A DNA stretch of 64,000 nucleotides from Branchiostoma lanceolatum (Eukaryota; Chordata; Leptocardii; Amphioxiformes; Branchiostomatidae): NCBI RefSeq assembly GCF_035083965.1, contig NC_089739.1, positions 7,924,001 through 7,988,000 of the forward strand, written 5' to 3'. The stretch's first letter is position 1; every line of letters starts with the position of its first letter. Below are positions 12,301-51,779 of this stretch, piece by piece. The position numbers and the translations under genes were made by a program. Under the pieces are notes generated by a model. It saw nothing but the letters and a program-made list of their open reading frames with translations. It was not told the DNA's origin and made no database searches.

Positions 12301-15300
12301 TGAACCAAACATGATGAATAAATGCACACAACAGGAAAAAGTCATCATACTGTTAGCACTGAACAACTAAGGTAATATCATTAGAATTAGCTATAGAATT
12401 ACAGATTGAAGTTGTTAAGAGAGGCAGTACGATTTGTAATAATTATGTTTTGCTGACATTCTACTATCTTATTTTGTGCACCCAAAATTCTTTCTGTTCA
12501 CCTAGCTATAGATTTTTACGTTAGGGGCACCAGTGCACCTATCCCCCTAAAAATGAATTTCAAGGCTCAGCCCTGCATAAGGGAACAGCTTACTTCTCAA
12601 GGTGCTCGTAAGCCGTGGCCCTCCTGAGGAGGGGTTTCCAGGAGTGTGGCTGGAGCTCTAGGGCGTGGTCACAGTCATCAAGGCAACCCTTCACATCTCC
12701 GACCTTATTCTTACCGGCTGCACGGTTACTGTACAGGGTAGACAGGCCCTGACTGTGGTCAGCTTCTTCTACAAATGTCAATATACAAAAGAGAGTAAAA
12801 GAGTTATTCCATGGAGTGATACAATGTGTAATTACAGTTAGATGTCAACAAACACAAAGACACTGCATATTTAAACCTCTGCCCTCTTATGGTTCTACTA
12901 TATCAGCTGATTTTGTCTTATTACCTTCGCGACGAATGGTTTCGTCGAGAAGGTTATGCGACGGTGCTTGTCTGTGTGTCTGTTAGTGAACAGAATAAGT
13001 CGAGAACGCCTGGATGGTTTGTTGTCGTAGTTGGTGTGTCGGTGTGTATGTGGCAAATCTCAAGATGATTAGATTTTGGGCGAAGTGTTTTGCATAATTA
13101 ACGAGAAAAGTGTAAAAATGTGTTCAATTGTATGCTTTACTATGCGTTCTGGTTGCGACGTGTGGGCTGTATAATGTTTCAGGGGATATTGATGGGGTCA
13201 CAGATGGGGGGCAAAGTTGGTCATGAGGGGTCATGAGGCAGGCAGGAAACCGTCAGTTACATGTACTGCAGCTGCCAGGGACAAATTGGCTATCAGCCAG
13301 CTGTAGGGCAGATACAAGAGATAGGCTTGCCCTGGTAGGCAGTAATGCTTTAAAGCACTAAAACAAGGGCTCAGAAAAGGATTCACCTTAATTGCAAGCC
13401 CCAAAAATTCTTATGCACCAGAAAGCCACATCTGTCTACTTTAGAATCATGCAAAGAAAATAGACAGTTGACCAGCTGGTTCTCTCGTAACAGCTGACAG
13501 ACGAAAACAATCGTCAACTTTGACCTACTCCCAGCCTGGAAGAGTCCACTCGGAGCATGTGAAACCAAACCACAAAGATATCTCCTTACACCAATTAAAA
13601 GACTGAAACATACAAATTTTGACCAAAGTTGGATATACACGGCCTTATATGAGTAAGAACAGTCATTAATGCAGTGCCACAGCATGGGAATACCGAGCAT
13701 GTCTGTGTGTCTGTTAGTGAACACGATAAGTCGAGAATTCTTGGAAGGATTGTCTTGGTATTTGGTATGTTGGTAGGTCTCGATGAAACCTGAAAATGAT
13801 TAGATTTTGGGCCCCCTATCGGCTTGTTACGGTACTGCAGCGGAACTTCATGTTATGATATCTCGTGTTGTGGACATGCTATGGAACTGATTTTTGAGTG
13901 GTAGATAGCTCGTTGGGCAGAGAGTAAGTGGTATAGGTTTGGGCCCCCTAGCAACTTTTTTGGAACTGCAGGGGTAGGTTTTGCTTCAGACATTGAAAGG
14001 GAATAACTCAAGAAGGGCTTGATGGAAGGTCATGATTTTTTGCATGTACATAGCTTGAGCGATGATGTACATGATTGGATACTTATTATGCAAATCAGTA
14101 ACTAATTTGCATAATTAATGAGGAAAGTTTATACATTCATCAATTTCCATGATAGGACTCGCAAACATGTGACATATGTAACTGAGGAAGAGAGAAATAT
14201 TAATAGATATCAGCTATGCAAATGAGAACCTCATTTACATAATCAATGAGAAAATAATATAACTCGAGATGGGCTTGATGGATGGTCATGATTTTTGGTA
14301 TGTAGATAGCTTATGTGATGCTTTGTATGATTGGATGATAATTATGCAAATCAGATTATAATTAATGAGGCAATTTTAAAAACCTGCTGTGTTCCATGAT
14401 ATGACTATTCAAATATGTGACATTTGTAACTGAGGAAGAGAGGAATGTCAATAGATAGAAATTATGCAAATGTAGGCCTAATTTGCATAATTCATGAGAA
14501 ACTACTATCATTCCATACTAGTAAATAACGGCAATTTCATACTTGTTGCATTTAGAAGTTGTGTGAATGTGAACACCATTGAATCAAATTATGCTAATAA
14601 GGAGCTTATTTGCATTATTGATGAAAAATGTTAGCATAACCTTCTTTGTTAAGCTCATAATCATAACAAGGAGGTTTGGACAACTTATGTTATTTGGGTG
14701 AGGAGGATCAACTGGTATGATTTTTGATTGATGAAAAACACTCCTAATACGTCAGTCATAAAGGTCAAAATCATTTCGCGAAGGTATGAGGTCGTAGAAC
14801 TCTTGTTATATATCATAATAGGTACTTCAAATTCAAAAGACAAAGTTTAACCTATTACAACCTTTAAAAACACTCAAAGGGCACGAACGTCTTCCAAGGC
14901 AGAAAGTCTTTTGCCACATTTACAATGATCATCAACAATGCAATGTACATTTCTGGATCTGCCACAAAATCTATCAAATTCTTAGGCAGTAAGGCTAATA
15001 GTGCAACTGCATTGCATCTGCTATCCGCTACTGAAAAAGCGTTATGCTTCGTCTCAACTCTCAAGCAATACGCTTCAAGTTCCACAGAAGAAAATCTTTG
15101 CAATGATAGGAAATACAAATGAATGGCAGACCAACCTTTCTCCAGCTCAGTGATAGCCTGGGTGTACTTTTTCACTGCTGCGGCATACTGGCCCTGTTGG
15201 TACAGACTGTTCCCAGCATCCTTCAGGCGGACCACACCATCTGGCAGTGGGGGCGGGGGTGATGGGGTTGGAGCAGGAGGGGCAACATTTTCCTGGCCGT

Positions 15301-18300
15301 TTGTTACATTTTCTTGAGCAGCTTCTTCTGTGCTAGAAGATTTTTCTGTGTCTTCAGGTTTTGTTGTTTCTTTTTGTGCTTCTTTTGGTGCCGAGGTTGG
15401 TTCTACAGTAGACTCAGATTTTGTGATTGTTTCTACTGAGGTTTCCACAGGAGTTTCTACAACTTTCTTCTCTTCCTGAAGCTTTTCCGCAGGTTTAGAT
15501 GCGTCTTCTTTCTCCTCCTGTGAAATGGCAAAAATCACATGCATTTCAGTTCAATACACTTCAAAAGTATTTCATGTGTCAAAACAACATGCCATTACCT
15601 TTGTTAATCCATGTGAAAGGACCATCAAAATGATACCTCATATCCTTTTTATTGTGAGTTTTTCAATTTAACTTTTCCCTACTTTTAAGAGAGCTGTATG
15701 CTAATCCCGAAGTCAGTTAAGCAACAACTTGGGGGGAAAAAACTCCGCTAGAATAGCTAAATCTATAACTAGCACAATTCTTTGTGAGAGAAACACAAGA
15801 GCTTGGCCTCGAGTAAAGCTTACATACTCGAAAGTTTTTGTAACAAAATTTCTTACATCTTGAGCATCCTCAGCTTCCTTTTCTTCCTCCTCAGACTCAG
15901 TGTCTCCCCCCTCCACATCCATGGTACCATCCACCTCCTCAATCACCATCCTGCGACCTTTACCCTTTGACCCTTCCTTTGAAGTTGTGTCTTGTATATT
16001 TTTCAGCAGCTCCTTTGACTTCTTGGCCTCCTCTGCTTTTTCAGTGGCTTTTTGATCTTGGACTTCTTTCAGCATGGCCTGTGGAGAATTCATCAATGAA
16101 GGGTTAAAAAGAGCTTGTCAATAGTCTAACAGGTATAACACAAATTCTCACTGCCCAAGGCTCTATGGAGCCCCTACCAGTAAGGGCTCTGACCAGTGGG
16201 AAAGGTGCTAGAAGCATGATTTGGTTATTGGGTACATTTAAAATTAGGTAGGCCGACTACTCTCTCTTTGTAGCCAGGGGCTGAATTGCGAGGAGCCCAC
16301 AATTGGCAGGGCTTAATTGCAAAAGTCTGTGGCTCAATATGACAATAGCACTAGGTACTTTAACCATAGGACTGTAGGTTTTGAACCATCAGTCGTAGTG
16401 GGATAGACCCCTACTGTTTCCAATAAGTGCGGTGGTTTTTTTTAAACATGCTTGAGGTGTGGATTTCCTCAAACAAGTCCATAATAAGCAGTGTTATTAC
16501 CTTTGCCTTGGGGTTGTGTGGCTCCTGTTCCAGTACAACAGTCAGGTCAGCTATGGCCTCCTCCCGCTGTCCCAGTCCCTTTCTACCCATGGCTCTTCTC
16601 AGCAGGGCTGTGGGGAAACATCAAGTCTTAGAATTAGATCATTTTGGGGACATGATAATTTGTGTTCATATAGCTATAATGACATCTATCCAAAAATCTA
16701 GTTGAGAAAAATGTCCTAGTATATTGCCAGCTATCAATCCATCTCCAAGTAAATGTAGCATTCAGGCTTTTTTTTAACGTACTCAGCAGTATTTACGTTT
16801 TCACGAATGAAACTCCACCAATTACGCTCAAAACAACCTTCACTGGTGCATCTGCTTGAAGATTAGCTAGCAATCAATCTCCAAGTAAATGTAGCATTCA
16901 GGCTGTTTTTGAGCATACTTAGCAGTATTTACGTTTTTACGACGAAACTCCACCAAATACGCTCAAAACAACCTTCACTTCTTCATCTGCTTGAAGATTA
17001 GCTACCAATATGGTCCGTTCTGTATCACCAAAATATAAATGCCAAAGTAAAAATGTCTAATGGAAGGCTAGAAAATTTATATAACATGGATCACAGTACC
17101 TTTCAGGTTGCCTGGTTCCATCTTCAGTACCACGTTGGTGTCATCTACTGCGTCCTGCCATTTCTCCTGCCTCAGTTCTGTTAGCGAGGTAAAAAGGTCT
17201 GATTTGAGCTCAGAATAACACACATACTTCAGTTTCCCTTACGGTGTTTCTCAAAACTATATACTAGTAATCATTAAGTTAAAGGACCTTACTAAGTATA
17301 ATAATAATAAAAGTTAAATGAACTTAGTATGGAAAATGATAAATTAATGCTACTTACTGGCCAGTGCCCTGTTGTTGTAGGCTGCTGCAGAGGGAACAAT
17401 AGAGATGCTCCTGGTGTAGTACACCTCAGCCTCCAGGTAGTCATTAGCCTTGAAGGCCTGAAATATAATACAGAAATACAACAATGTAACTGAGCCCTGC
17501 AACATTTGTGCACTTTCTGTTTTCTCACTTTGGAAGGTAATTTCAGAGATCAACATGGTAATTATCAAGGAAAGACACTGTCAAATTGGGGGACGAGTAG
17601 GCAAATCTTGTACAAGGAAAAGAACAATTAAAATCATACAACACTATGTTCATCATTTCATAACATTTTTCACCTCATTTCCTTTGTCTTTTTCCCTCTC
17701 TGCTTTTCTGGATTTTTCTTCATCTGACATGTCTGAAAACAATGAAAAATATGAGAAATTTCATTTCAAACTTCATGCCTTTATGATCATAAATCAACAC
17801 AATTGATTAACCATAATGTATTTAATCCAGTACATGTACTTTGACTGCCCAAATTTGGGGAAAGCAAACATTGATCCACATACAGCAAGTCTCATTCAAA
17901 ACAAGGCGTCAAACATCTGAGCACTGTTAACTTGATTCCTCCCAAGCTTAAGCCTATAAATACAACCAAGCACATGTGCACATGTAATACATTATACATA
18001 CTCTTGCTATAGCAACCAACAGCTGAAAAAATATCAGAAAGACATAAAAGCATCCAAAAATAGTACCAGTAAAAATGCTTGAAAAAGTAGATCGAACAAA
18101 ACAGGCATCAAACCCTAAGTTAAGGAAAACAATATCCAATACAATCTCAAGGATGAATTTTTTGAAGCAATGAAATTATATAGACAGTGCACACATATAA
18201 TCTAGGTGATGATGAAACTACCATGTGAGCACATGTGGGCAACCATGCCAGCATGGAAAAACCCTCGACATGCTTTCAAAGTTTCATACTTGACGTATGT

Positions 18301-26500: not shown

Positions 26501-29500
26501 TGGTTTCTTCAACATAAAGCCATACAAACAGATCAAATCCAGGCCATACTAATTCAATTATATGGATAACATCCTCCAGGCACCTAAAACTTAATCAGAT
26601 GTTAAGGTGAAAAAACAAAAATTGAGCAAAAAAAGTCTAAACCTTACATGGTATCACTGTTAGGTCTATCTTACCTCAAATGTGGTAAATATACAAATGA
26701 ATAAAAAAATGGTCAACTGATCTTCATTTATTTGTTAACGTTAAACAGACAGATCAAGGAGGCAAACAGGGGGTCAGCCCCCCCAGTTTGAGAGTCCGAC
26801 CCCCCCTCCTGCCGACATGGACTGTGATATCAGAGGACCGGCCAAGAACACCTGCAGAATGAAGCTGGTCGCAGACTACAGATTCTTCACCGAGATGGGC
26901 CAGAGTAGCCTGCGACAGACTATCAACTACCTGGTAGGTTATGTGCTATACTAGTTAAACCAAACCAAGTTGGGCCGGAGTTACCTGTGCCGGACTTTTG
27001 TCTTGTAGTGCTGATCTGTACATTTCAGTTCTATACTTACCGTCTAGTAAAACTGTACTAAGTTGGCCCAGAAAATCCTGTGACAGAGTATCAACTACCT
27101 GGTAGGCTTTGTCTTTTATTGCTGGACTTGTACATGTCAGTGCTATACTACTGTGAAAGACTTTTAGTTCACATTCATGGATTTAATTTCTTGATACCAA
27201 GATGCAAGAAAATGGAGTGTTTGCATTGGTTTTAAGTTCGCAACTGTTGCAACAATAGCAGTGCTACAGTCAGGAGACAGAACATTTTAGACAGGTTTTA
27301 AGTTTGTGGCGAACACTAAACCTCTGCGAACATTTCCCTTTTTACAGTAGATGAATTGAGCAGAGATGGGCTAAAAAAGCCTGTTCCAGTTTTGCGGAAA
27401 CGTACATGTCAGTGCTACATGTACAGCTACTGTAGTTAAACTGTACTGAGATGGGCCAGAGTAGTCTGTGCCAGACTATGAACATTCAAGCTGATCTTGA
27501 TATCATTTTTCTCCCCAGATTAACTTGATTGAAGGCGTGGACAGAATATTCCGCTGCACTCAATGGGGGAAAGACATGGGTGGCTTCGGCTTTGAGATCA
27601 AGGAGGTAAGTACCGTCTTAATGTTCATGTCCTATTTCTACTTCACTCAACAAGTTCAGAAACTTAATAATAAATCATTTCTCTGTTGTATGGTATCATG
27701 TACAATGTATCATCGAAAAGCTTGTTAATAGTTGATAAAGGTTACACCTAAATGTCCATCGTCATCAACATAAGTGTACATTTTTGTCAGATCAAAGTGC
27801 ATGAAGAGCCCACGCCACCCACTGGTGCTGAACGCTACAATATGGAGCTGCAGGGGATGACATGGCAGGTTAAGGATCTGTTGGCAGTAAGTACCTTATT
27901 GTCTCTTCTGTCTTTTGTCAGATCAAAGTTCACGAAGAGCCCACCCCTCCCGGTGGCGCGGAACATTACAACATGGACATGCAGGGGCTGACGTGGCAGG
28001 TCAGGGACCTTCTCGCAGTAAGTACCGGAAATCTTCAAATCTTTGCGAGGGAGGGCTGTCTCCAGTACCCGTCCCTTCTAGGACAATAACTTTACTTCTT
28101 GATATGGACAAAATTTCACCCCATCCATCCAAAAAATTTGAACTTCATGACATTCTTGAATGTGTTCCCCTCCTAGAACATGTCTCCATGACCACAGTAA
28201 GTTCTGGATGTTCTTGTGTTCTGTTCCTAGAACTTGTCTCTATGACTACAGTAAGTTCTATATGTTCATGTATTCTGCTACTTAACATGTCGTGTTGTGG
28301 CGTCGTGTGGCGCAACTGTAGAGCACGCGACTGTCAAACAATGGGCCCCGGGATCTAATCCCAGGTGTGCCCAGAGACATGTCCGAACTTGCGCCCCGAC
28401 GTTGTGCCCTTGGGAAAGGCACTTAACACGACTTTCCTCACTTCACTCAGGTGTAAATGAGTACCTAGCTCATCTAGGGTTAGGGACGTCCCTCGGATAG
28501 GACGTTAAATGGAGGTCCCGTGTTTGGGGAGAGCCACACCCCGCGCACGTAAAAGAACCCACCACACCTTTCGAAAAAAGAGTAGGGGCATGCCCCGGTG
28601 TGCGATGGTCCAAATCTTACAGTCCGGTCTGGGATGGCATCTTGAAAAGGTGATAGTTCACCTGTTATGTCAATCCTTCCACAAAATGTGGTAAATCAAA
28701 ATAAATAAATAAATAAATGTCTCTTTGACTACGGTAAGTTCTGAATAACCTTGTGCTCCCCTCCTAGAACTTGTCTCCTTGACAACAGTAAGTTCTGTAT
28801 GTTCTTGTGTTCCCCTCCTAGAACTTGTCTCCTTGACAACAGTAAGTTCTGTATGTTCTTGTGTTCAGCTCCTAAAACTTGTCTCTATGACTACAGTAAG
28901 TTCTATATGTTCTTGTGTGCCGCTCGTAGAACTTCAGTCTCCATGACTACAGTGACTTCTGCCTGGCGCATCTCTTCACATACCAAGACTTTGACCATGG
29001 GGTTCTGGGACTGGGCTGGGTCGGGACTGACCGGAAAGCAGGCATCGGCGGAATATGCACGGATGGTAGGTCAAAGTTTAAGGTTCAAGGGTCAGGATCC
29101 TGGCTTTATACAGGTCATAGACATTTTGATTTTTTTTCAAGGTTGAAGGTGCCATGAGTGCACGTGGTGTCACCATTTTTGAGGTGAAATAAAGTTCAAA
29201 GTCTCAGACCAGAGTTCTTTTCACAACCTCAAAGCTTTTTGACTGCTTTATGCACATGGATTATGGTATCATCATGGGACTAAGACTAGGACCATGCTGG
29301 GCAATAAAGAGACTGTAAGTCCGGGGGGAATCTCTTTGAAGGGTTGGTCAAAGCATATCATTTGAACATTTCTCCACAGTTTCTGGCAACACCTAAAGGG
29401 TAGAGGCATTATGGCATCATTGCAATCAATACATGTATTTCCTTGCAAAACCTTGGAAGAAGTAACTTGTCTTTAAAAACCTCCTACTCATTGAGGTAGA

Positions 29501-32500
29501 ACTCATGAAGCAGTAAAGGCGTACAACAGATTTCACGCTAGCTTGAGCTACTAACCCCACCATGCATGCATATCTGACCCAAAGAACCCGGCATGTTTTT
29601 GTTCTAGCGTTGAGGTGCACCAACGACCGTTCCGAATGGGAAGTGTGCAGGAATGCATATGGTAAGACTCAGTCTCCCTGAAGCTGTCGGGTGAAATCTC
29701 AAGATGTCTTCTGAGTCTCCTCTCCTGGATCTTTAAGGACCTATCTGGCAGGATTTTTTGCACTTGAGTTGTTAAAGTGTTACAAATAATATTATGCTGT
29801 CTCGGCTTTTGCATACCAGATCCTCCCAATGCAGAATACTAACTACAAATACTAGTTGGCATTGCAAATGGAGATATACCGATACACTAATTACCATTGG
29901 CCATTGGTGTCACGCACAGTGATTGAATCTCAATATAGAATTGTGTAACTATGTTTACTCCAGTTTAATTGCATAGTTTTATTACTAAGAAATCGATGCC
30001 GCTCCCAACTTTCTTAAAACGTGCAAAATCATGATTAGACTCACAACATTGAACAATTTACTAGACCTTGCCTATTTCAAAAAGAGCACAGAAATTGTTG
30101 CATTATAGAATTTTTACATTTTGAAATATAGGCAAAACAAAACAAATCTCAGAATAGCAAGGTTCTTTTATTCACAACCAAGTATTTATAAGAGCCAACA
30201 TTTCGATGACTGTCTGTCATCTTCATCAGGGCAATACTGACTGTATTGCCCTGATGAAGATGACAGACAGTCATCGAAATGTTGGCTCTTATGAATACTT
30301 GGTTGTGAATAAAAGAACCTTGCTATTCTGTCATTCACCAACCTGATGAAATTATTCAGAGATGAAAAACAAATCTCAAGTGCAAAGAATCCACTGAATG
30401 ATCCTTCGCAGAACTCTTTCCTAATTAACCTGGTGCTTTCTCAGGGCAATCACGCAGAGTGCAGCTCTCCTGGTGGAGGCACTGTTTCCAGTCTGCCTGC
30501 TGTTTCTCCATTCTGCTTGCCAATCAGCCTTGTATGAAGCAGCTTCAAGTACTGTAAATGCATTTAAGTTTGTGGTGGTTTTATGTTCACGGTTTTTGCG
30601 GTGACCTCTTCACTGCAAGCTCAACAAGTTTGTTCTGTCTTCCGCCCGCCTACCCCCTTGTCTAAGCATTCCATGTACGTAATGTACATTGTACAGTATC
30701 CTGATGTGTTGGAGATGACAGTTATGTCTGCCTGTAGTACCAATGCCGAGTCCGTAGTAGGTGGTTTCTGTAAAGGAGCCGGTGTTTCCATTGCTGTAGA
30801 AGTATGTGACTATTTAGCACTATCGCAACCTCAAAACCACCGCAAATACTCCATTTTTCTCCTTACCGGGAAGTTAAATCACTGCCAACTTAAATGCATT
30901 TACAGTAGTTTTAGCAAGATTTGTGATTATAGAGTTTGCAGCTCAACTCACAGGGGTAAAGCTCTACCAGCCTTCTGTGTTTACTTCTGAACAGACTGTC
31001 ATTTTTGGCCTGGTGTCATGTTTGGTACACTGTGTGTTTGTAACACTTTGCTTGATGTGGTTTGATCTAAAATGTTCGGATCTCAAGCTCTGTTCTTTGA
31101 TTCCTTGTCTTCATGTTTTCTCAACAGACTGTCAACTTTGGATTGGTATTAAAAAATGTGTTGTTTTTTAATCAAAAATGTCATTACAAAGTGCTATTAA
31201 GGTTCCCCCTTTCTGCTGTGATTACTCATTTTTGTTTTGACGTGAGGCAATTTTTTTCCAACCTGTGTAGTACAGCATAAAGGCAACAAACTTATTGATA
31301 GATAGATAGATTTAACATTGACATGTTGTTGCACTGAGGATTCTTTTGCGTAAGTCTTTAACATTATTTGAATGGAAAAAATTCCACGCAGCTTTCAGAG
31401 ACTACAATGAACTGATGAATAATTGTAACTCAATCCTGAACATGTCCCTTCAGACTATTGGAACTCTTATTGTGTAAGTTTTAAATTGTTTGAATCGAAA
31501 AAAATCTACACAGCCTATCTCCCTGTTGTGTATAGGAAGCAGCAAGTGACCCTTTTCTTTAAAAAAAACCCTCAGCTTGCAAAGACTGAAATGATCTGAC
31601 TCAAAATTGAAACCAATGAACATTTGCACAAAAGTTGAAACTTCAGCACCCTAGACAGCAAGTATCAGGAAGCATCTACTTTAGAAAAAAACTGAAAAGA
31701 GACAAAATCAGCAGCCTTCAAATTTTAATCTTCAGGCACCATACATGTACTATAACTCAGATTCAACTTTGACATGTACCATATTGGCTCATATATTCCT
31801 AACATTGTTTGAAAGGAAAACCTTGTACACAGCCAGAAGCAGTAGATGACCTTTTTCTGTGCAAACAAAACTCAGCTTTCAGAAATAGTCTTCAAAACTT
31901 CAGCACCCTTGACAGCAAGCATCTACTGCAGATAAAAGTAAGAACTTAAAGAGACAAAATCAGCAGCCCGCTAATTTTAATCTTCAAGCATTATACATGT
32001 ATTATAACTCTTCAACTTTGACGTGTACCGCATTGGCTTCTATTATCTAAACCTTTTATTTATTCATGTACAATGTATTTGCATCAGGCACATGGCCAAT
32101 ATTTCCAACAAACTCTAATACAGAAATACACTAACAATATGCCAGCAAATCTTCTACTTACAAAATAAAAACTACAGGATAAGGAAAACAAACTAATTTG
32201 AATATATCAAACTTTGACATGTTGTACATAGAATTCTTTTAAGTCTTAAATAACATTGTTTGAATGGAAAAAACTTCCACCAGCCTATCTCCCTGCAGTG
32301 TATAGGAAACAGCAGGTAACCTTGTACCTCAACACGGGCCTCACTAGCACCCTCAACTGGAAACGACGTATCCTCACGCGGGAGGCAGACCTCGTCACGG
32401 CACACGAACTGGGGCACAACTTCGGCAGCGAACACGACACGGATGATGCAGAATGTTCGCCGAACCCAGAACAGGGTGGGAAGTATATCATGTACCAAGT

Positions 32501-35500
32501 AGCTGTCAGCGGAGAAGAAAGAAACAATAAGGTATTATTTCAGACAGACCAGTGGATAAAGAAAGAAAGATACAATAACTTAAGGTAAACAAATCCAGAA
32601 TCCTCGCTAACCCCAAAATGGGGGGGAAGTATGTAATGTACCAAGTAGCTATCAGCGGGGAAGAAAGAAACAATAAGGTGTTATGCTTACGTGTATATGA
32701 TGTTAGGTCTTAAAATTTAGTATTGATACTCAAGACATGTTTATGTAACCTCTTTCAACATTTATTGGCTGAGTTACGTGTATCCACATCATTTGCATTT
32801 TTGTGAAACTTAAATGGCACCCAGACCACTGTCTTTTCCCCCCTCTTCAGCTGTTTTCTAACTGCAGTAAGAGATCAATCTACAAGGTGCTGTCAGCCAA
32901 GCACTCCCTATGCTTTGTAGGTAAGTTTGTCATTAGATTTCATTGTCTTTCCAAAAGGTAAAGCAGTCATCCTCTATTGAGGTGAAAGCACATGATGCTT
33001 TTTCAAGTATACAGTGGTAGTGAAATGCGGCTTTGCTACGGCTCACATTTTAGCCAAGCACACCAGGTCACCCCTCAATAAGTTGTTTGATTCTTATGTG
33101 CATATACTAAGGTTTTATACTTGGGGCTAAATCCTAAAGCTCCCTCACACAGGGGGCTAGGATCTAGAGTTCAGGAGCTTGAATCATGGCTTTTGTCTCT
33201 CACCCGACATGCATACTACTGGAAAGGATCGCAATCCTTGGGACATTAAGCCATGGTCCAAGAGTTATAGGGGAATTACTCTGGTACAAGAAACTTGTAG
33301 ATACTGTACTAAAGAAGTGTCTGTCTTCTGTGTAACGACCAGTGGGAGATTAGCTCTTCAGGGAGTTAAACTGGCCCATGGATTGAGATCACTTTCCTTT
33401 CTTTTTAGAGCCGCAGAAGTCCCTCTGTGGTAACTACCGTGTGGAGGAGGGGGAGGAATGTGACCCTGGTCACCTTGGCAACAAGAACACCGACCCCTGC
33501 TGTACCGGGGAGTGTAAGTTCAGGGGAACTGCAGTGTGTAGGTAAGCAGTGCAAATGTTAAATACATGTACTTGCAAAAGTCTGTAAGACACAATGGTGT
33601 TTGTGGTGTGGGCTAAGGTGTTTCATACCCTTTGTACCAGGAATAACAATTTCTTTAAAACCTGTTTCTATTTATGTCCAGGTAGTTGTTTACTATAACA
33701 CTAGTGACTAGTAACCTATCGTAGAGTCAAACTCGTTGCCACCAAGTATTGCAAGATCATCCTCATTAGATAGCTTTAAACAGTGCTTACAGTTAGATAT
33801 GTGAAGATTAGGTGTGACAGGTTGATCAGTGTAATATAACCAGCCACTTCCACACCATGTGCCTGTGGAACTGGTGTGTCATGCTGGCTATACAGATACC
33901 GAAAATTAACAATGATTTTACCAAGTTAATAGGTTTGAAGGAGGTGGAAAAATTGTGTGTATGTGCGTGGGGGGGGGGGGGCGTTAGGGGTGCGTTGAGG
34001 AGTGTTAGACATAGGATACCGTGCTTGTTGGCAACGAGTTCCACTATATGATAATTGTAAGGAAAAGCAAAATTGTGACCACCTCAATGTTGGTTTGTTT
34101 GCAGTGACAACAACTCCCCCTGCTGTCTGAACTGCACCTTCACTCCCAGCTCCCACATTTGTCGGAGGGCCGCGCCCCCCGAGGACGACGCAACCTGCAA
34201 ACAGGCCGCCTACTGTACATATCCTTTACATGTATAACACTGCCTACAGTACTGTACATATCCTTTACATGTATAACACTGCCTACAGTACTGTACATAT
34301 TATCCTTTACATGTATAACACTGCCTACAATACTGTACATATCCTTTACATGTATAACACTGCCTACAGTATTGTACATATTATCCTTTACATGTATAAC
34401 ACTGCCTACAGTACTGTACATATCCTTTACTTGTATAACACTGCCTACAATACTGTACATATCCTTTACATGTATAACACTGCCTACAGTACTGTACATA
34501 TCCTTTACTTGTATAACACTGCCTACAATACTGTACATATCCTTTACATGTATAACACTGCCTACAGTACTGTACATATCCTTTACATTACAATGAAAGT
34601 CAAGTTACAAAAAGGCTAAAACATAAAATTCTGATGTGATCCTTGTAGTTTTCTTTGATCTTACCTCCTCATTACCTCCATAAGACTTGGAGGTATTGTT
34701 TTTTGGTGTGAATACCGGTATTGTGTTTATCTGTGTCTGTGTGTAAACTTTGTGTTTCTGGATACATAGTATTTGTGGTCAGCATAACCGTAGCACCTCT
34801 GGATGGATTGTAGTGATATTTGGTAATGTGGATAGGTGTTGGGAAGACGAATGTCAAGGTCAATTTTGGGCCTCCGGACAGCTTTCCTTGGTACTGCAGT
34901 ATCTTTTGTCCTGGACCTGTAAGCAGTTTTGTAAATGGTCAGACATTTCAAATAGCATTTGTTGTCTTTCATCAGTGACCTACTAGTAATTTGTTGAAAG
35001 TCTTTAACACTGTCTACTGGAACCAGTCCAGACTGTCCAGCTTCTGAACCCAGGAATAACGGCACCTGTATTGCGGAGTAAGTCTCCATGTTTGTATAAC
35101 CTTCTGCCTGCTAAATTGGAGTAATTTCTGTATACTGAAAATGCAGAAATGTTTGCTGTGGTTTTATGTTTGCGGTTTTCGCAGTGACCATTTCACCACA
35201 AACTTAAAACCACCGCAAATGTTTTTGTCCAATACTGTAGCAGTATGTGACTTAAGCACTGCCGTGAATTTAAAACCACCGCAAACACTCATAGCGCAAA
35301 ATAAAAGACACGCAAACTTTAAACAAGAAATGGTCAGAGACTTCCACCCAATAAGGTCTGTGACGTACATGTACATAAACTCAATTTTTCATATGCTATC
35401 ACTGGCACCTGTAAGAAAGCAAAAACATTCATGTGTCTAAAACTTATGGACATTGATCTGACAGAAAAGGCAGCATTTTAGGGCACCTTTCTAAGATTGC

Positions 35501-38500
35501 CATGCACTTGAACTGACAGGAAAGCTTATCCGGTATCAATCATGGAAAGAGCATCTTGGTTGGGGCTGTTTGCTGCCCTATGTGCCACTAAGGCACTACA
35601 AGGCCTTGGGCAAACGAAAGAATAATCAGGACTTCTTCATGTACAAATATGATAACGTTTGAATTGAAACCTTTTCCACACATTGTTTTTTTTTCTCCAG
35701 TGGCCAGTGTAGGAATGGAACCTGCATGCCTTTCTGTGAGAGCCGCGGGCTCCAATCCTGCCTGTGTCAAAACGGTAAGTGACGTGGCTACATCAATGCT
35801 GGGTTATGCGTCGGTCCCAATTGTGCCGGTGCCCGTCAGAGGTGTAGTCCCAGCCGGGCCCCGAAGCCACAAATGTGTCCCAGTGGGGGTTACGATAAGG
35901 TCACAGCGTCCATTTGTTTTCAGGTCCCGTTTATGAGTTAAAATGATTCAGGTTCGTTCGGCCCCCAAAATAGCATGTCAAGATTTATGAGAGTCCTAGT
36001 TCTCACAGAAAAAACAAACCACTTTCAGTCAGCATACAATGTATATGCTGACTGAAAGACAGTGTAGGGGCCTAAATGACAGTCTAAGGGGCCCCTATGG
36101 TCAAACTATGCTAACTAGAACATGATTGTAGAGTATCTTGAATGAATAGGGGTTTTCTGTTTTTCCAAGTGAGCGAGGCGTGCAATGTGTGCTGTATGAT
36201 TGAACATGTCCTACCCTGTGTGTAAACCCTACCGAGGGGACACGCTGCTAATGTATTCACCCCCGCCCTTTCAAAGTGGGAAGCCTTTCTGCGGCCAAAC
36301 TAATTCATATCCGGGTGCTACGTTGGGCCTAAATTCTTATTTCTTTATTTCCAGTGAGCGAGGCGTGCAATGTGTGCTGTATGAACATGTCCCACCCCGT
36401 CTGTAAACCCTACCGAGAATCACCCCAGGCTGAGCTTAAGTGGCAACAAGAGGGCAAACCCTGCGTACAGGGCTACTGCTACAAAAGCGACAAAAATGTA
36501 AGAATGCTCTTTCTGTTTACATTTATGAAGGTTATACATCCAGGTAACCTGTATTTTAAGACAATTTTATCTCTACATCTGGATTTTAAAGATTCAGAGA
36601 AGAAAAAGAGTGATGGATGCCACTTGAAATGTTAAATTCATCCAAGCGTAAACTCGCGAGAGTCACAGACACCTGACTTTATGGACGCCTGCCTTTATAG
36701 ATATGTGATGTCAACAATTGGTCAAATGCTGCCGACGTCACGTATCCGTAAAGACATGTGTGAATCAAGTCATGTGTCTGGAACTCTCACGAGTTTACGT
36801 TCGGAAGTGATTGGTCATTATCGATCCTGAAGAAGGCGACAGTGGTTGTTGAAAATTTGATCCGTGAATACATTAACGTTGGAAGAAAGTTTAGCATTGT
36901 CTTATGATAATTTCTCACACAGATGAGCTTCCATTATGACTGTCCACTTTGTTTTCAGCTCCAGTGTGTGAAGCAGGCTTCGGACCTAGTGAATCGCTTC
37001 TGGGACATTATGCAATGGATTTCGCCTGACAAGATTGGTATGTATCGATTCAGTACTGAAAATCACTGAACATTAACAAGAAACTGGATATGATTTTGGA
37101 AACCAAAGAATGAAGACAATGATATGATTTTCCAAAATCATATCCAGTTACTTGAGCAACTACTATTTGGCATATCTTATTACTTGGATGTCAAACCATC
37201 ATCAACAATGTTACAAAAACTTACATTTTAATTTTGTATATCACCCCCTCCCTAGCTGAAACAATGGCAGCCAACATTGTCGGGACTGTGTTGATCCTAT
37301 CCCTGATGTTCTGGGTGCCTTGTGGCTGTCTGGTGCATGTGGTGGTAAGAGATATCCTTATGTATTATGTAATTTATTACATATTTGTATATTGTCCCCT
37401 CTGCAGCTGTGACAGCCGCTTTTAAGGGGGTGGAATCTCACCCGTGGGTAAAATTCATTCCGAGCCATAAACCAATACTAATTTTGTGGTGCATCTTTTG
37501 TAAACATAGTAAGTGCTGTGGTGAATTGAAGAAAGCAATGATGGTCCCTTTATATCATACATTAATAATGATAATTATGTGGCTCATATCAAGTCGTAAA
37601 AGGCAGTGTTTTGCACATTTCGATGAGAACAAACCAAGAGTTCAAATTTTGTTTAATAAACTTTTCTCTACATACTTATTAGGTGTAGTACCAATCCTAT
37701 CTTTTCCATCCACCTGTGTATGTTAAACTTTCTTTTGTTCCTCTCTCTTCTTTGTCTCCACAGAAAGACAAACCTAGACATGATATTCAAGGTCTTCTTC
37801 CTTTGAAATCTTTTATTTTGCAAAAACACTGGGATTTTGATGCCATGTTGTTTAACTAATAACATGAATCCCATGTCTTCATTTGATGTTCTTTTACTGC
37901 CTGGCTTTTGTTTTGGAAAGTTCAGTCAATTTTTTTTTGTCTTTACCTCACCTTCTTTTAAGATTGAATAGTTATGACATTGTAGTATATTTCAAGACCT
38001 AGCTTGTTGCCTGCCTCTTCTTTTTTGGGTTACTTAGTAATTCCTTCTTTACTTCAAATAGGTTTACCTTGAATATCGCACCTTCTTTGTCCATTTGATA
38101 GATTAATTGAATTCAAAGCATTCTTTACTTTTTTGAATTCATGTTTTGCTTCTTTTTTTTTTCAGGACAAGAGGAGGTTGAAGAAGAGGCAGCTTGAAGA
38201 TGAAGCATCCAAGGTTTGTTTATTTAGCGTCCATTATGCTTCATTGATTGTTTACATGGTGGCACAGTGGCCTGGTGGTTAGGGTTGTTGACTCAGAACC
38301 TGGAGGTACTGAATTTGAATCCCTGACAGGTACCGATGTTGTACCCTTGGAAAAAGCACTTTACACCAATTTCCTCACTCGATGGTGTAAACGTAGCCTG
38401 AGTGCCTGCATTTTTAGCTTCCGCACGCTACCCAAGCTTGCGCAGCGGAGCTTGTGTAGCGGACGGAAGCTAAAATGGCTGGTACTCAGGCTAGTGTAAA

Positions 38501-49060: not shown

Positions 49061-49660
49061 TCGTTGAGCGTTTCTGCATCCGTGGGGTTTCTCGTCAGGC
49101 TGTTTATAAATGTTTTGTTTGTATTTGCATACAGAGTCGGCGACACCGTGACACACGTCTAAGGGATGCAGGAGAAGTTCCCCAGGACGATGGTGGCATC
49201 ATCTTCACCATTAACAGTGAAAGATGGGCCAGGAGAGGAGCAGGGCAGCTGTAGCAGCAGTCACTCCGCAATAACAGCAGAAGCGGCACGCAGTGAGTAT
49301 CACTGCCGAGAGTCTTTTCCGACTCGGAGAAAGGAGATGTGCAGTTGGGTGGCTTAGGATTACATCAGTCCCGGGTACGGATTGCGCAAGTGAGCCAGCT
49401 GTAAGGAGTGGTTCAGTTTGTTTTAGCGTTTTTTCCATTTTAAGTTTGTATTATGATTATGTTGGTGACAATTGTTTAATTTGGTGCTGTTTTTAATGTT
49501 TTGCATCATGATTTCATTGAGTGTACTATGTGTTATTGTATTTTGGAAAACAGTGCTTGTACGGACTCCCGGTCGTTCGCGCTTGGTGTCACTGTTAATG
49601 TGTGAATATCAAGTTACATGGACCGGAGAGTTTCTGGTTATGGCGTGTTTTCATTTGTGA

Positions 49661-51560
49661 TGAAACGGCGCGCATGTGCGAACTTCTGATCGTTCGGGCT
49701 TGGTGTTTGCTAGCACTCTTAGTGTGCGAGCACCGGTTAGCGTTGGTCAGTCGTTCGCGTATGGCTGGTGTTTCATATTGTGAGAAACGGCGCGCATGTG
49801 CGGACTTCTGATCGTTTCGTGCTTGGTGTTTGCTAGCACTCTTAGTGTGCGAACACCGGGTAGCGTTGGTCAGTCATTCGCGTATGGCGGGTGTTTCAGT
49901 AGGGGAAAACGACGTACACATACGGGACTTCGGTCATTTGTGCTCGGGGTTTGTTACGTCTTCCATCGTGCAAACTTTGAGTAGCTTTGGCTGAGGGGAC
50001 CGTGATGGTGTGACGTGTTTTCATATTGATGAAACGGCGCGCATGTGCGAACTTCTGATCGTTTCGTGCTTGGTGTTTGCTAGCACTCTTAGTGTGCGAA
50101 CACCGGGTAGCGTTGGTCAGTCATTCGCGTATGGCGGGTGTTTCAGTAGGGGAAAACGACGTACACATACGGGACTTCGGTCATTTGTGCTCGGGGTTTG
50201 TTACGTTTTCCATCGTGCAAACTTTGAGTAGCTTTGGCTGAGGGGACCGTGATGGTGTGACGTGTTTTCATATTGATGAAACGGCGCGCATGTGCGAACT
50301 TCTGATCGTTTCGTGCTTGGTGTTTGCTAGCACTCTTAGTGTGCGAACACCGGGTAGCGTTGGTCAGTCATTCGCGTATGGCGGGTGTTTCAGTAGGGGA
50401 AAACGACGTACACATACGGGACTTCGGTCATTTGTGCTCGGGGTTTGTTACGTCTTCCATCGTGCAAACTTTGAGTAGCTTTGGCTGAGGGGACCGTGAT
50501 GGTGTGACGTGTTTTCATATTGATGAAACGGCGCGCATGTGCGAACTTCTGATCGTTTCGTGCTTGGTGTTTGCTAGCACTCTTAGTGTGCGAACACCGG
50601 GTAGCGTTGGTCAGTCATTCGCGTATGGCGGGTGTTTCAGTAGGGGAAAACGACGTACACATACGGGACTTCGGTCATTTGTGCTCGGGGTTTGTTACGT
50701 CTTCCATCGTGCAAACTTTGAGTAGCTTTGGCTGAGGGGGCCGTGATGGTGTGACGTGTTTTCAGTATTGATGAAACGTCGCGCATGTGCGAACTTCTGA
50801 TCGTTTCGTGCTTGGTGTTTGCTAGCACTTTTAGTGTGCGAGCACCGGGTAGCGTTGGTCAGTCTTTCGCGTATGGCGGGTGTTTCATATTGTGGGAGAC
50901 GGCGCGCATGTGCGAACTTCTGATCGTTTCGTTCTTGGTGTTTGCTAGCACTTTTAGTGTGCGAGCACCGGGTAGCGTTGGTCAGTCTTTCGCGCATGGC
51001 GGGTGTTTCGTACGTTGGGAAACGGCGCGCATGTGCGGACTTCTGATCGTTCGTGCTTGGTGTTTGCTAGCACTGTTGTGTGCGAACACCGAGTAGCGTT
51101 GGTCAGTCATTCGCGCAGGGCGGGTGTTTCATATGTTGGGAAACGGCGCGCATGTTCGGACTTCTGATCGTTCGTGCTTGGTGTTCGCTAGCACTGTTTG
51201 TGTGTGAACGCCGGGTAGCGTCGGTCAGTCATCGTGCATGGCGGGTGTTCTCATAGGTGTGATGAAACGGCGCGCATGTGCGAACTTCTGATCGTTCGTG
51301 CTTGGTGTTTGCTAGCACTGTGTGTGTGCGAACACCGAGTAGCGTTGGTCAGTCATTCGCGCATGGCGGCTGATTCATATGTTGGGAAACGGCGCGCATG
51401 TGCGGACTTCTGATCGTTCGTGGTTAGTGTTTGCTGGCTCTGTTTGTGTGCGAACACCGAGAAGCGTTGGTCAGACATTCGCGTTTGGCGGGTGTTTTTT
51501 ATATGTTGGGAAACGGCGCGCATTGAGGACTTCTGATCGTTCGTGTTTGGTGTTTGCTGG
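49661..51560. repeat. Satellite array with a 247-bp higher-order unit
   Basis: Four successive 247-bp units run 49783-50770; units two to four are almost identical. Each is made of two diverged halves of about 123 bp, one starting GAAACGGCGCGCATGTGCG and the other GAAAACGACGTACACATACG. On both sides are single monomers of about 120-126 bp of the first type, more diverged. Because 247 is not a multiple of three, the repeated 73-codon open frame cannot continue across units and is not a gene. Confidence 0.93.
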
Positions 51561-51779
51561 CATTCAACTCGGGTGCTTTACGTTTAGATTATGGTTACGC
51601 TACGAGATGGTGTATACAACGTGCTTGCTTTGGAATGAATAGTAGACCCATCCGCCCATCCGGATCTCGCCCATATTGTTTTGAAATGGATGTGTCATGT
51701 TGTGACATCAGGGACGGTTTTACAAAAGTATTGAAGTAATGGAAACCGGAGGTCCAGCAAAATATTTGATATCTGAAAC

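Follow-up and report, generated by a model that had tools for sequence, protein, structure and literature searches.

A candidate pair of sterically enforced, mutually exclusive exons in the ADAM17 gene of the lancelet Branchiostoma lanceolatum

The ADAM17 gene of the lancelet B. lanceolatum carries two adjacent, in-frame copies of exon 9, here called 9a and 9b, that we consider to be a mutually exclusive exon pair enforced by steric hindrance, with a probability of roughly 0.78. The short distance between the two copies would almost certainly allow a cell to use just one of them at a time, so that the gene probably yields two enzymes that differ slightly. Both exons lie in a window of 64,000 nt (positions 7,924,001 to 7,988,000 of contig NC_089739.1), the whole stretch of DNA that was analysed, and all positions below refer to it. 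The original prediction placed two exon 9 copies of phase 0-0 here, 35 nt apart, with coordinates that are right to the base.

Gene model and anatomy of the exon pair

The features on which the argument turns are as follows.

27519..27605, plus strand: exon 8, 87 nt, phase 0-0, donor GTAAGTACC, in the open spliced frame and aligning to human ADAM17
27606..27790, plus strand: intron upstream of 9a, 185 nt, with a weak polypyrimidine tract (pyrimidines at 12 of the 22 sites from -25 to -4)
27791..27886, plus strand: exon 9a, 96 nt, phase 0-0, 32 residues, placed by sequence comparison and the spliced frame
27887..27921, plus strand: 35-nt GT..AG interval between 9a and 9b, which as an intron would appear to be unsplicable
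27898, plus strand: predicted branch adenine for 9b, in a match to the yUnAy motif (CTTAT), at base 12 of the interval and 23 bases upstream of 9b
27899..27921, plus strand: polypyrimidine tract and acceptor of 9b (pyrimidines at 18 of the 22 sites from -25 to -4)
27922..28017, plus strand: exon 9b, 96 nt, phase 0-0, 32 residues, donor GTAAGTACC
28930..29065, plus strand: exon 10, the downstream exon, placed by the spliced frame and alignment
32284..32531, plus strand: exon 11 with the zinc motif, placed by the spliced frame and alignment

Exons 7, 8, 10, 11 and 12 form one open frame of 273 residues with either copy of exon 9. When compared with proteins of solved structure, this frame matches ADAM17 best (E = 3.4e-76 for the form with 9a and 1e-76 for the form with 9b), far above the second-best structure, ADAM10 (2.2e-35 and 6.2e-35, respectively). 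Its Pfam matches are to the Reprolysin families, and exon 11 encodes the zinc motif HExxHxxGxxH. Judged by its sequence, the spliced frame is the metalloprotease domain of ADAM17 (TACE), as originally proposed. Exon 9 aligns to residues 282-319 of the human protein, which places it ahead of the zinc site (in the human protein the zinc motif begins at residue 405) and within the human catalytic domain, given as residues 215-473 (PMC12491190). The gene model was built from homology and splice motifs and comprises 19 placed exons, 9a and 9b included; it leaves out the initial exon, the point at which exon 14 ends and the exons that separate 14 from 17. Because the model is partial, exon numbers are provisional and follow those of the original prediction.

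Both copies have complete splice sites, with TTTTGTCAG before and GTAAGTACC after each of them alike. The donors of 9a and 9b score equally against a donor consensus (6.10 each, against 11.70 for the donor of exon 8). Judged against the U12 consensus, the donors of exons 8, 9a and 9b, which all start with GTAAGT, are of the U2 type, and incompatibility between U2 and U12 splice sites was thereby ruled out as a cause of exclusion. When read in the frame fixed by exons 7, 8, 10, 11 and 12, both copies are open, and neither has a stop, an indel or splice-site damage. The two neighbours are thus homologous exons of 96 nt each that share phase 0-0 and are identical at 26 of 32 residues, as mutually exclusive tandem exons should be. 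No third copy of exon 9 was found by tblastn with both peptides across the whole window at E values up to 1.

The similarity between 9a and 9b (self-BLAST E = 1.3e-24) reaches 9 nt past either end of the exon and then falls, with matches at only 2 of 11 sites further upstream and 3 of 11 further downstream. Lancelets are very heterozygous (3.2-4.2%; PMC12862219), and two haplotypes placed side by side during assembly might therefore be mistaken for a duplication. However, the copies are unlike at 21 of their 96 sites and so are their flanks beyond the 9 nt, which would not be so for alleles; we reject such an artefact as exceedingly improbable.

Divergence, selection and age

The 21 differences are distributed 4, 3 and 14 over first, second and third codon positions; 13 are synonymous and 8 are nonsynonymous. 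They change 6 of the 32 residues (T/G, R/H, E/D, L/M, M/L and K/R), exactly the differences first described. With BLOSUM62 scores of -2, 0, 2, 2, 2 and 2 these changes are mostly conservative, and a difference in function is therefore unproven.

Comparison of 9a and 9b by the Nei-Gojobori method gave dS = 1.34, dN = 0.115 and dN/dS = 0.086. The bootstrap 95% interval of the ratio is 0.007-0.293, and the ratio reached at least 1 in none of 10,000 resamples and at least 0.5 in 23; saturation of dS in 1,579 of these resamples, for which a value of 9 was substituted, depresses the low end of the ratio and makes the upper bound of dS not estimable. Neutral simulations with 21 differing sites produced a mean of 13.7 and a minimum of 7 residue changes compared with the 6 observed, and none of 20,000 gave six or fewer changes without a stop. 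This result and the self-BLAST E value rule out chance as the source of the likeness between the copies. The pairwise estimates indicate that the pair is under purifying selection, although such a ratio does not speak to the present-day constraint on each copy. The original suggestion that both copies look constrained thus holds for the pair.

Because the pairwise ratio is silent on which copy is constrained, we simulated evolution with one branch partly neutral. At dS = 1.34, the data were fitted by 0, 1, 104, 483 and 1,011 of 1,500 simulations when the whole, a half, a quarter, 17% and 10% of the branch, respectively, were neutral, and a repeat that started from both copies gave 0, 0, 124, 470 and 1,018. 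At dS = 0.541, the lower bootstrap bound, the corresponding numbers were 5, 288, 1,058, 1,222 and 1,361. The simulation permits no amino-acid change elsewhere and is thus lenient toward a silent copy. Since few simulated neutral branches fit, it appears very unlikely that either copy was never functional and, at the point estimate of dS, unlikely that either has been dead since long ago; a later silencing of either copy is possible.

Such a silencing would most plausibly concern 9a, the copy with the weaker acceptor, which might now be unused or rare as a duplicate whose decay is still to come. Its pyrimidine tract is poorer than that of 9b (12/22 vs 18/22), neutrality over 10-17% of one branch fits the data at dS = 1.34 (if dS is 0.541, 288 of 1,500 simulations still fit when half a branch is neutral), and other exons of the same gene have truncated copies. 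Nevertheless, both copies are undamaged, their dN/dS is low and each retains a residue matching human ADAM17 that is absent from the other, namely the His of human HYNM in 9b and the Lys of human DVK in 9a. We therefore regard a silenced duplicate as rather unlikely.

The truncated copies were found by searching the 19 exons with 15-nt flanks at E values up to 0.01, leaving out the 9a/9b matches and those of exon 14 to a minisatellite. Eight exon-edge copies were listed, from exons 7, 10, 11 and 17, and all eight are truncated. They and the local repeats near them are located as follows.

27061-27112 and 27445-27483: 3' end of exon 7, present twice more in the following intron as truncated copies, one of which keeps a donor-like GTAGG
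28161-28291 and 28717-28961: two blocks of a 54-nt tandem repeat with a unit like the exon 10 acceptor and first bases
31498-31551: copy of the exon 11 acceptor and 5' start, about 0.8 kb upstream of exon 11, with CAG kept and the frame open
32593-32684: 3'-terminal part of exon 11, copied in the intron that follows it, with 28 codons open and GT after them; the rest of the exon is absent and the alignment is 1 nt shorter
34211-34588: 39-nt minisatellite that starts within or just past exon 14 and blurs the end of that exon
36154-36236: copy of the exon 17 acceptor and first part, truncated, with insertions of 1 nt and 4 nt and the frame lost

Of the exon 7 copies, one is interrupted by an in-frame stop and the other has no donor. 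The three exon 10 matches fall 2 nt short and form part of the 54-nt tandem array, which has further units. Open frames of 22 and 28 codons persist in the two exon 11 copies, each of which is without most of the exon. Copies of exon 14 were dropped from consideration because the provisional end of that exon runs into the minisatellite. Across the whole window, 41 pairs of local repeats less than 1,500 nt apart were listed at E values up to 1e-6, with overlaps between many of the pairs. Tandem copying is thus common in the window, and duplication alone is therefore no evidence of function. Exon 9 is alone among the exons searched in having a complete second copy; the contrast with the other exons is imperfect, as a truncated copy would not have been usable to begin with.

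Several other features were seen in the window. Some of the 54-nt units have their own AG and GTAAGT and are possible decoy splice sites upstream of exon 10. Local repeats spaced at about 247 nt form a long array at 49639-51565, and a weak tetratricopeptide-repeat match below the curated cut-off, at 14864-15550 on the minus strand, likely belongs to a neighbouring gene. A tRNA scan of the window with the bacterial code found none, and searches for relatives in viral and prokaryotic contig collections returned 1 and 26 pattern matches, respectively, of which none was confirmed by tblastn.

At the DNA and protein levels, 9a and 9b are 78.1% and 81.3% identical. Orthologues of the Chinese and Florida lancelets, which split about 120 million years ago, are reported to average 79.5% and 81.2%, with virtually no similarity in introns (PMC4284660). 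Published lancelet rates of 4.65e-9 or 5.89e-9 per site per generation (PMC12862219) convert the dS of the pair into 144 or 114 million years, respectively, if one generation per year is assumed, with a very wide error and with a bias toward too low an age if gene conversion acted. The pair may thus date from around the time when the Chinese and Florida lancelets diverged, given a dS near 1.3 that itself has a very wide error.

Geometry of the 35-nt interval and exclusion

Joining 9a to 9b would require a branch point inside the 35-nt interval, in which adenines occur only at +3, +4, +7, +12 and +34, the last being that of the terminal AG. The branch adenine would therefore be at most 12 nt from the 9a donor. 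The sole yUnAy match in the interval, CTTAT at +12, lies 23 nt from the acceptor, and this predicted branch point is far nearer to the upstream donor than the approximately 50 nt below which steric interference is expected. The published minimum distance between donor and branch point is near 50 nt, and on an E1A transcript a distance of 35 nt abolished assembly (PMC6692369). Human introns of 43 nt do get spliced (PMC4463651), and a hard size limit can therefore not be claimed for every animal. The original claim that the interval is too short to splice agrees with these published limits, which are human, and the position of the branch adenine makes the steric case stronger than first stated.

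If the 35-nt interval could nonetheless be removed, both exons would enter one mRNA and add 32 residues in frame, as phase 0-0 preserves the reading frame. Some duplicated neighbouring exons, such as those of the vertebrate COE/EBF genes, do stay side by side in a single mRNA (PMC2394523), the human 43-nt introns show that short introns can be used, and the doubled protein is still a good match to Pfam Reprolysin_2 (105.4 bits). However, a branch adenine within 12 nt of the donor is at odds with the approximately 50 nt needed, and the 35-nt interval is the shortest of the 18 between placed exons, the next shortest being 185 nt (one of the 18 spans exons that were not placed). The doubled form also scores slightly below the single forms (109.4 and 109.7 bits), which is a weak argument. 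Overall, double inclusion seems very unlikely.

Retention of the 35 nt introduces a stop codon that starts 29 nt before the end of 9b; since this stop precedes later junctions, decay of an mRNA retaining the interval would be expected. Skipping of both copies removes 32 residues. A productive outcome should therefore require exactly one copy. Considered together, selection on the pair, complete splice sites, a common phase and the short interval closely fit the mutually exclusive pair that was first suggested.

Exclusivity might alternatively depend mainly on competing RNA structures of the docking and selector type, rather than on steric hindrance, and such systems are present in other genes (PMC6071210). 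But the region 27606-28120 is predicted to fold no better than shuffled sequences (z = 0.07, with 50 of 100 shuffles as good), and just three short, imperfect inverted repeats occur in 27606-28929. These analyses of the single sequence give no sign of control by RNA structure, and we consider it highly improbable as the main cause of exclusion.

The steric reading suggests the following scenario. The two exon 9 copies would have arisen long ago, when a unit of 131 nt, the exon plus 35 nt, was duplicated in tandem, and both would have been retained as functional, mutually exclusive exons. U1 on the 9a donor and U2 on the 9b branch site could presumably not both be productively bound, and a transcript would follow the path 8-9a-10 or 8-9b-10. 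The outcome would be two catalytic-domain isoforms that are six residues apart in the segment aligned with human residues 282-319. The choice between the exons might be regulated and the isoforms might differ in function: 9a is closer to exon 8 and has a weak acceptor, 9b has a strong acceptor and a crowded branch site, and trans factors could tip the balance between them.

Relation to known systems and possible meaning

Steric control of exon choice is an established kind of mechanism. Smith and Nadal-Ginard reportedly proved by experiment in 1989 that mutually exclusive splicing of alpha-tropomyosin is affected by the distance between donor and branch point (cited in PMC6692369), a feature that the 9a/9b pair, in a different gene, would share. 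The exclusive OGDH exons 4a and 4b are also similar to 9a and 9b, as their branch points are too near the upstream donor and the size of the intervening intron is limited (PMC7969005). However, the human OGDH branch points that keep the exons exclusive were experimentally mapped, at 25-41 nt from the donor (PMC7969005), whereas the position at +12 in the 35-nt ADAM17 interval is predicted from sequence alone. Lancelets are known to have a mutually exclusive tandem pair in a gene for a signalling protein, exons IIIb and IIIc of amphioxus Fgfr, but these encode part of a receptor Ig domain, are homologous to a vertebrate pair and are regulated by Esrp, and a cephalochordate-specific exon, IIIx, can be included there together with IIIc (PMC5703972); 9a and 9b instead encode part of a protease domain.

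Among human clusters of mutually exclusive exons, 57 (9%) were reported to have potential steric interference, with less than 50 bp between donor and branch point (PMC5740500). The main text of that paper has the string "adam" once, in an author name in the reference list (PMC5740500). No report of alternative exons in ADAM17 itself was found among the titles and abstract openings of the open-licence papers listed, which is weak evidence of absence. We know of no vertebrate counterpart of the exon 9 pair. Such a pair in ADAM17 is thus new as far as we found, and its spacer is unusually short.

We take the strand that enters exon 9 to be, as in metzincin topology generally, at the edge of the sheet remote from the cleft. 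The ADAM17 prodomain is reported to bind opposite the active-site cleft and to add two strands to the central sheet of the protease (PMC12184519). Given this binding site and the presumed position of the strand, the six changes may affect prodomain docking rather than substrate binding. Our guess is that the difference between the isoforms tunes the contact of the zymogen with its prodomain and not the active site. A broader and tentative possibility, which we think is more doubtful than probable, is that the pair is a lineage-specific switch between ADAM17 catalytic-domain isoforms that acts on the prodomain-docking face away from the cleft; its 35-nt spacer, in which the 9a donor and the 9b branch point virtually overlap, might rank among the tightest steric exclusions that animal genes contain, held for about 100 million years.

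ADAM17 frees TNF and ligands of the EGF receptor, and iRhoms and the prodomain are regarded as its main controls. The 35-nt spacer might serve as a clean natural test of the minimum spacing between donor and branch point, and a possible age near that of the split between the Chinese and Florida lancelets makes the prediction of such a pair easy to check in other genomes and with RNA-seq. If the pair is indeed mutually exclusive, alternative versions of a part of the enzyme domain would add a further layer of control over ADAM17 in an animal that is maybe near the base of the chordates.
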